Source of the DNA: Pirellulaceae bacterium
GTDB lineage: Bacteria; Planctomycetota; Planctomycetia; Pirellulales; Thermoguttaceae
Length of the DNA: 64,000 bases
NCBI GenBank assembly: GCA_012744395.1
Contig: JAAYCB010000265.1
Span: 1 to 64,000, forward strand
Direction: 5' to 3'
Part shown: positions 30,201 to 31,773 of the stretch, one piece after another
Position numbering within the stretch: the stretch's first letter is position 1
Layout of the letters: each line of letters begins with the position of its first letter
Made by a program: the position numbers and the translations under genes
The notes under the pieces: generated by a model
Database searches by the model: none
Told to the model about the DNA's origin: nothing
Seen by the model: only the letters and a program-made list of their open reading frames with translations

Positions 30201-30384
30201 GACGGGATTCTCCGTGGCCAGACCCGTATCTGCTGGTCCAAACCCTCCGACCCCCCAGGGTACAAAGCCAATATATCAGGACCTGGCCGCCGGCAAAAGA
30301 ATCCCCGCGGCCGGTACGCTACTTTACAGGGGCGGGGCGGGTCGGCAAGAATGACGGGAAACAAAATCCTCGGAGAAACTCGCG

Positions 30385-31773
30385 ATGGACGGAAGAGATG
30401 GCAGGGCGGCGGCTGCGGGCGTCTATTTGGGCATCGACGTCGGGGGAACGAAAATCCAAACGTCGCTGGTCACCCAGTCGGGTTCCGTCTTGTCGCGGCA
30501 CCGCGGCCCCACGCCCCGCGACGGCCAGTCCGACAGCGTTCTGGCGGCCGTCGTGGCGGCGGCCGAAGAGACGATGCGCGGCAATGCGTTCGAGCCGGCG
30601 AGGCTGACCGCCCTGGGAATCGCCATTCCCGGCGTCGTCGACCCGCAGCGCGGGCTGGTCGTGGTGACCCCGAACATGAGTCTGTCGGGCGTCCGGATCG
30701 GGCCTTACCTGGAGGACCGCTTCCGTGTGCCCGTCGCCCTCGGCAACGACTGCAACCTGGGGGCCCTGGGCGAATCCTGGCTCGGCGCGGCGCGCGGCAC
30801 CACCAGCTCGATCACGATCCTCGTCGGAACCGGCGTGGGCAGCGGGATTGTCCGCAAAGGCAAGCTCTGGGCCGGCGCGCGGGAGTCCGCCGGCGAGATC
30901 GGGCATATCGTCAGCCAGATCGGCGGGCCGCAGTGCGGCTGCGGCAACTGCGGATGCCTCGAGGCTTTGGCCAGCCGATCGGCCATCGAGCGCGAGATCC
31001 GCGCGGCCGTGGCCGAAGGGCGCGCCACCGTGCTGACGGAACTCGTCGGCGGCGAGCTGTCGATCATCCGTTCCAAGATGCTCCGCGACGCCCTCGACGC
31101 CAACGACGCCCTGGTGACCGAAGTCATGCACAAGGCTTCCGAAGTGCTCGGCTACGCCTGCCTCTCGGTCCGCCATCTGCTCGACCCCGAAGTGATTGTG
31201 CTCGGCGGCGGCGTGGTCGAAGCCTGCGGCGGCTTCATGCTCCCGATCATCGACGCAATCCTCGCATCCGACCAGCTTGCCGGCGCGCGCAGCGGCGGGC
31301 ATGTCGCGCTCTCGGCGCTCGGGGACGACGCCGTTGTCCTCGGGGCCGCGGCGCTGGCGGCAACCAAGGCCGGCCGCAATCCCTTCAAACAGCGGAACTC
31401 GATTCTGCCCGCATACCCGCAGATCGGCGATGCCACCCCCGGCGAACTCGTTGTCGGCGAGAAGACCTTCTCCACGGATGTCACGATCCACGTCGACGGC
31501 AAGGTCAAGAAGCGCAAGCAAGCCCAGGTGAAACAGCGCCACGGCACGACGCACATTCTCGACGCGGTGGAGGTCCGCAAGCTCTGCCGGGGAGGGCCCG
31601 AGGTCGTCTTCGTGGGCACCGGCCACGCGAACCAGTTGCACCTCGATGAAGAGGCCCGGCAATTTCTCAGCCGGCGGCTGATCAAGGTGGAATTGCTGCC
31701 CACGCCCCAGTTCGCCGAGGCATACAACGCCTGTTCCGCGCGCAAAGCCGCCCTGATCCACGTGACCTGCTAA
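30385..31773 (+). CDS. ROK-family sugar kinase fused to a C-terminal Mth938-like domain
   Basis: A 462-residue two-domain protein. Residues 1-~335 form a ROK kinase: ATP-binding DVGGTKIQ at 18-25, catalytic Asp122 in GNDCN, His174 in SAGEIGHIV, and the zinc motif C184-G-C186-x2-C189-G-C191-LE. These features fit a glucokinase-like sugar kinase. Residues ~354-462 match the Mth938/AAMDC fold (DUF498): GELVVGEKTFSTDVTIH, then PEVVFVGTGHANQLHL and LPTPQFAEAYNAC. I know of no established role for this pairing. GGAG precedes ATG 30385. The next gene, 31 bp downstream, is an oxidoreductase of sugar-metabolising type. Confidence 0.88.
   Translation: MDGRDGRAAAAGVYLGIDVGGTKIQTSLVTQSGSVLSRHRGPTPRDGQSDSVLAAVVAAAEETMRGNAFEPARLTALGIAIPGVVDPQRGLVVVTPNMSLSGVRIGPYLEDRFRVPVALGNDCNLGALGESWLGAARGTTSSITILVGTGVGSGIVRKGKLWAGARESAGEIGHIVSQIGGPQCGCGNCGCLEALASRSAIEREIRAAVAEGRATVLTELVGGELSIIRSKMLRDALDANDALVTEVMHKASEVLGYACLSVRHLLDPEVIVLGGGVVEACGGFMLPIIDAILASDQLAGARSGGHVALSALGDDAVVLGAAALAATKAGRNPFKQRNSILPAYPQIGDATPGELVVGEKTFSTDVTIHVDGKVKKRKQAQVKQRHGTTHILDAVEVRKLCRGGPEVVFVGTGHANQLHLDEEARQFLSRRLIKVELLPTPQFAEAYNACSARKAALIHVTC

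Follow-up and report, generated by a model that had tools for sequence, protein, structure and literature searches.

A ROK sugar kinase with a C-terminal Mth938-like domain in Planctomycetota and its possible link to polyphosphate metabolism

The window analysed in this study (the whole stretch of DNA, 64,000 nucleotides) contains a gene for an intact ROK sugar kinase, nearest to the glucokinases by sequence and by structural model, which continues in the same frame into a domain of the Mth938/AAMDC type (DUF498). With a probability that we place at roughly 0.5, the gene encodes a catalytically active ROK hexose kinase of the glucokinase type that takes part in polyphosphate metabolism and has the Mth938 domain permanently attached at its C-terminus. 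A sugar kinase would thereby join the candidate components of polyphosphate metabolism in this phylum, the Planctomycetota.

The gene and its two domains

The first-pass annotation of the window, made from the nucleotide sequence alone, had described one open frame joining both domains. This proved correct: a single ATG-to-TAA frame of 462 codons, without an internal stop, was found at 30385-31773 of the forward strand. Its features are as follows.

30372-30375 (+): likely ribosome binding site, GGAG, 9 bases 5′ of the ATG (from sequence)
30385-31773 (+): full gene, ROK kinase, linker and Mth938/DUF498 domain, 462 codons plus TAA (frame, Pfam, homologues)
30424-31365 (+): ROK kinase domain, residues 14-327 (PF00480, E 1.3e-58)
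31366-31419 (+): linker GRNPFK...YP, residues 328-345, conserved among the fusions
31420-31770 (+): Mth938/AAMDC-like (DUF498) domain, residues 346-462 (PF04430, phmmer, fold search)
31498-31545 (+): basic loop GKVKKRKQAQVKQRHG, residues 372-387, net charge +7
31759-31770 (+): C-terminal tail H-V-T-C-COOH, residues 459-462 (from sequence)

A full-length homologue (L031) is 92% identical to the window protein, and nine further homologues were found. The gene is preceded by a response regulator and followed by a Gfo/Idh-like oxidoreductase; this immediate context was dropped as a functional clue, since most relatives lack the same neighbours.

The N-terminal part matches the ROK family model (PF00480) with 199 bits against a cut-off of 22.9, covering positions 1-293 of the 294-position profile. 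It contains (i) the motif D18-x-G-G-T22, (ii) the catalytic Asp122, (iii) ExGH at residues 171-174 and (iv) the zinc site CGCGxxGCxE at residues 184-193. The DVGGTK, CGCGNCGCLE and His174 reported by the first-pass annotation are thus at the places it gave, and the active-site and zinc residues tested are kept in all 39 distinct fusions, with the exception of one G-to-A replacement at residue 21. Only 13 residues precede the ROK domain; there is no N-terminal DNA-binding domain, which rules out a ROK-type transcription regulator. The window protein did not reach the cut-offs of the models for ROK glucokinase (TIGR00744; 185.5 vs 260 bits) and polyphosphate glucokinase (NF045942; 43.7 vs 250 bits). 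The best structural matches of a full-length model (pLDDT 73.5, with the confidence of the C-terminal half too low to place the two domains relative to each other) are the ROK glucokinases of Enterococcus (2qm1), Thermus (3vov) and Streptomyces (3vgk), and the solved relatives of the kinase also include the polyphosphate glucokinase of Arthrobacter (1woq).

On the basis of this anatomy, hexose kinase activity is predicted with near certainty, and the closest relatives of solved structure suggest glucose as the likeliest substrate. ATP is probably favoured over polyphosphate as the phosphoryl donor; polyphosphate is an unlikely donor because the zinc motif is present and the polyphosphate glucokinase model is matched weakly. 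The polyphosphate glucokinases of methanotrophs are without this motif (PMC6406325).

The assignment of the C-terminal part, also proposed in the first-pass annotation with limits that were right to within a few residues, is supported by three lines of evidence, which define an Mth938/AAMDC domain at residues ~346-462. Residues 351-452 match PF04430 (E 4.8e-10) with a score of 39.8 bits, above the cut-off of 33; the figure for the domain alone is 42.8 bits. With phmmer, the C-terminal part finds MTH938 (1ihn, E 3.9e-10), PH1505 (2cyj, 1e-9) and human C11orf67/AAMDC (2ab1, 0.0056). An AlphaFold2 model of residues 340-462, built from 11 homologues without templates and of modest confidence (pLDDT 63), agrees with this result: its five top PDB matches are two chains of 2ab1 together with 2cyj, 2gm2 and 2fi9. 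Two of these entries (2ab1 and 2cyj) are family members recovered by sequence as well, and the other two presumably also belong to the Mth938/AAMDC family. A fold different from that of Mth938, which the first-pass annotation had named as a refutation, was thus not observed.

The two halves differ in their conservation. Compared with the window protein, the fusions have a mean identity of 62% in the ROK half and 44% in the DUF498 half, and the dN/dS values, calculated against L031 and L032, are 0.17 and 0.15 in the former and 0.24 and 0.29 in the latter; both halves are therefore under purifying selection, with the DUF498 half evolving faster. Linker residues G330, P333, F334, Y344 and P345 are retained in 32-37 of the 39 fusions. 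Within the basic loop (GKVKKRK...), G372, K/R373, K375 and R377 are retained in most fusions, and several fusions lack the loop. The fused DUF498 domains are mostly net positive in charge, whereas separate ones of the phylum are mostly near neutral or negative. The window protein ends with AALIHVTC; the T-C end is present in 26 of the 39 fusions and missing from 13, in which the kinase is intact. The loss of the tail from a third of the fusions, and of the basic loop from several, indicates that the original function of the domain is not always needed.

Several peculiarities of the DUF498 and kinase sequences were observed. H-x-T-C is the exact ending of almost every separate DUF498 protein in the phylum and supplies a fixed C-terminal cysteine across DUF498 proteins (loci L041-L067 and the fusions). 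One fusion (L091:1108-2877, reverse strand) carries a Lys/Asp-rich low-complexity insert of ~50 residues within the basic loop of its DUF498 domain, and three others with a degenerate tail (L040, L029 and L094) also have an insert of ~17-60 residues directly before the zinc motif of the kinase. A single separate DUF498 protein (L244, genome G015) shares the fused-type basic loop; nothing informative was seen in its gene context.

The fusion arose once

The distribution of PF04430 was surveyed in 392 genomes across the phylum. The window genome yielded one PF04430 match and three ROK matches, and in its family (f1) most genomes with PF04430 encode it together with a ROK domain, in one frame of 460-540 codons. 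Beyond this family the domain is mostly a separate protein, as the first-pass annotation had stated: among 30 sampled genomes with PF04430 outside f1, it is joined to ROK only in two, both from a distant family of a different class (f52), which hold the same fusion. Some of the remaining proteins, from several families (L062, L063, L065, L066 and L067; 208-238 codons), have several apparent membrane-spanning segments before DUF498. In one genome (L064:1474-2292, reverse strand) a DUF498 domain ending with HVTC is fused with an AhpC/TSA-type peroxiredoxin; of the redoxin profile, the frame includes no more than the C-terminal part.

A tree of 89 ROK domains placed the 40 fused kinases on one branch with 100% support, within which the f52 pair is basal. 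Every member of this clade, 38 from f1 and two from f52, contains the Mth938 domain (degenerate in one case and split by contig ends in two). The lost stop codon, which the first-pass annotation had named as a possible refutation, and an assembly artefact are ruled out by the 40 fused relatives, and the two domains were not found as separate neighbouring genes in any related genome. The fusion is clade-wide and confined to one branch; it is therefore old and has been kept, and is not a local accident. Several genomes of f1 are without it and carry only distant ROK genes.

A few candidates for a different architecture within the clade were rejected. L093 and L137 only appeared unfused, because their genes run off the ends of contigs and continue in L133 and L061, respectively, and L132 contains a degenerate DUF498 domain. 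The apparently larger fusions L036 and L037 (882 and 912 residues) owe their length to a region upstream of a good start codon that looks more like a stop-free frame than like an additional domain.

Polyphosphate genes near the kinase branch

The gene for PPK2 is located directly upstream of the fusion, on the same strand, in five f1 genomes representing four genera, and in a closed genome of 4.8 Mb a tandem PPK2 lies 7 kb from it. In f52 the ROK-DUF498 gene follows CHAD and two thymidylate-kinase-like genes and precedes the gene for an HD protein with similarity to domain III of Ppx/GppA; the same genes except CHAD recur in the second f52 genome, where the contig break falls within the fusion. 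Polyphosphate binding is established for the CHAD module, which is often encoded in operons with polyphosphate enzymes (PMC6537752). The unfused sister kinases, from other families of the order, form ROK-Ppx/GppA-PPK1-SixA-like clusters in 6 of 20 genomes.

Of the 57 loci with a fused or sister kinase, 14 thus had polyphosphate genes nearby, as against none of the 20 unfused control ROK loci of f1 examined in the same way (Fisher's test, 0.016, a value that overstates the evidence because the loci are related and not independent). None was found near the 25 separate DUF498 loci, with shorter flanks. The adjacency of PPK2 taken alone is not significant (p 0.15), and the presence of PPK2 tracks neither the fusion (p 0.38) nor the H-x-T-C tail (p 0.10). 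Most fusion loci have other, unrelated neighbours. The window fusion has no adjacent polyphosphate gene; its genome carries CHAD-Ppx/GppA-PPK1 and a tandem PPK2 on other contigs. Taken together, the neighbourhoods suggest that this branch of kinases serves polyphosphate metabolism.

Two further details of these loci were recorded. The adjacent thymidylate-kinase-like genes beside the f52 fusions (L119:1-2867 and L148:981-2538, CHAD being present in one) could be unrecognised polyphosphate or nucleotide kinases; neither PPK1 nor PPK2 was found in these two genomes. The ROK protein of one sister cluster (L231:1955-7420, reverse strand; five similar loci were identified) is without the zinc cysteines.

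Possible roles and relation to known systems

According to the reading that we prefer, the fused kinase would act on glucose or a similar hexose, with ATP as the most likely donor, close to the site where polyphosphate is converted into nucleotide triphosphates (PPK2) or turned over (PPK1, Ppx); it may, for example, use the ATP produced from polyphosphate by PPK2. A docking or regulatory function is then the best reading of the Mth938 domain. With its basic loop the domain may tether the kinase to polyphosphate or to a protein partner, and in this way couple sugar phosphorylation to the polyphosphate store. This docking step is the least certain part of the explanation and is put forward tentatively. 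The sugar-linked role suggested in the first-pass annotation is in keeping with a glucokinase-type partner; the link with polyphosphate was not part of that suggestion.

The protein may instead be a ROK glucokinase of the ordinary kind, with the Mth938 domain as an appendage that serves structure or oligomer formation and has no connection to polyphosphate; the neighbourhoods would then reflect shared gene-order ancestry. The weaker conservation of the DUF498 half, the loss of the tail and basic loop from part of the clade with the kinase intact, and the unrelated neighbours of most fusion loci are consistent with such an appendage, which we regard as possible, if rather doubtful. It is harder to reconcile with the occurrence of three different polyphosphate gene sets (PPK2; CHAD with a Ppx-like HD protein; Ppx-PPK1-SixA) beside three lineages of the kinase clade and its sister group, and beside none of the control ROK genes.

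Two other explanations give the domain a more specific task. It is improbable that it is a redox or cofactor sensor regulating the kinase through its C-terminal cysteine: the H-x-T-C ending of nearly every DUF498 protein of the phylum and the peroxiredoxin fusion of L064 point in this direction, but the kinase is intact in the 13 fusions that have no such cysteine, and we know of no chemistry of the H-x-T-C tail. Still less probable is a polyphosphate-dependent glucokinase in which polyphosphate is the phosphoryl donor and is delivered to the active site by the basic Mth938 domain. Polyphosphate glucokinases are ROK proteins, with 1woq among the matches obtained here, and the basic loop and the polyphosphate neighbours would suit such an enzyme; however, the ATP glucokinases are closest, the polyphosphate glucokinase model is matched weakly and the zinc motif is present.

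A broader extension of the preferred, polyphosphate-linked reading is that Mth938 domains in general bind polyphosphate or other polyanions (or dock a PPK), so that the fused kinase feeds polyphosphate energy into the sugar phosphorylation of f1. We consider this unlikely; if true, it would be the first biochemical function assigned to a domain that also occurs in humans, as AAMDC. Proteins of the Mth938/AAMDC family range from archaea to humans and, to our knowledge, no biochemical activity has been demonstrated for any of them. Human AAMDC is an oncogene candidate (PMC7998036). Since the partner in this family-wide fusion is an assayable enzyme and the neighbouring genes hint at a pathway, the function of Mth938 becomes directly testable.

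Both halves of the protein belong to known families, and their lineage-conserved combination is new as far as our literature search reached. The first-pass annotation knew of no description of the ROK-Mth938 pairing, and none was found in the open-access literature (subscription papers and domain-architecture databases lay outside the search); nor did this literature describe ROK kinases, with or without Mth938, as belonging to the CHAD-Ppx-PPK1 polyphosphate clusters, genes of which adjoin some of the fused and sister kinases.

The fused kinase shares with the ROK glucokinases (TIGR00744; 2QM1, 3VOV, 3VGK) the fold, the ATP motif, the catalytic Asp, ExGH and the CxCGxxGCxE zinc site, and differs from them by the additional C-terminal domain; its 185 bits against the TIGR00744 cut-off of 260 therefore set it on a separate branch. 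Like the polyphosphate glucokinases (1WOQ, NF045942), it belongs to the ROK superfamily and is a sugar kinase tied to polyphosphate, but in this case the tie is one of gene neighbourhood, the model match is weak and the zinc motif is present. The C-terminal domain has its sequence, predicted fold and HVTC terminus in common with Mth938/AAMDC (1IHN, 2CYJ, 2AB1), and the basic loop followed by G-T-[ST]-H in common with the archaeal members. Whereas members of this family are usually separate proteins of ~120 residues, here the domain forms the C-terminal part of a kinase.
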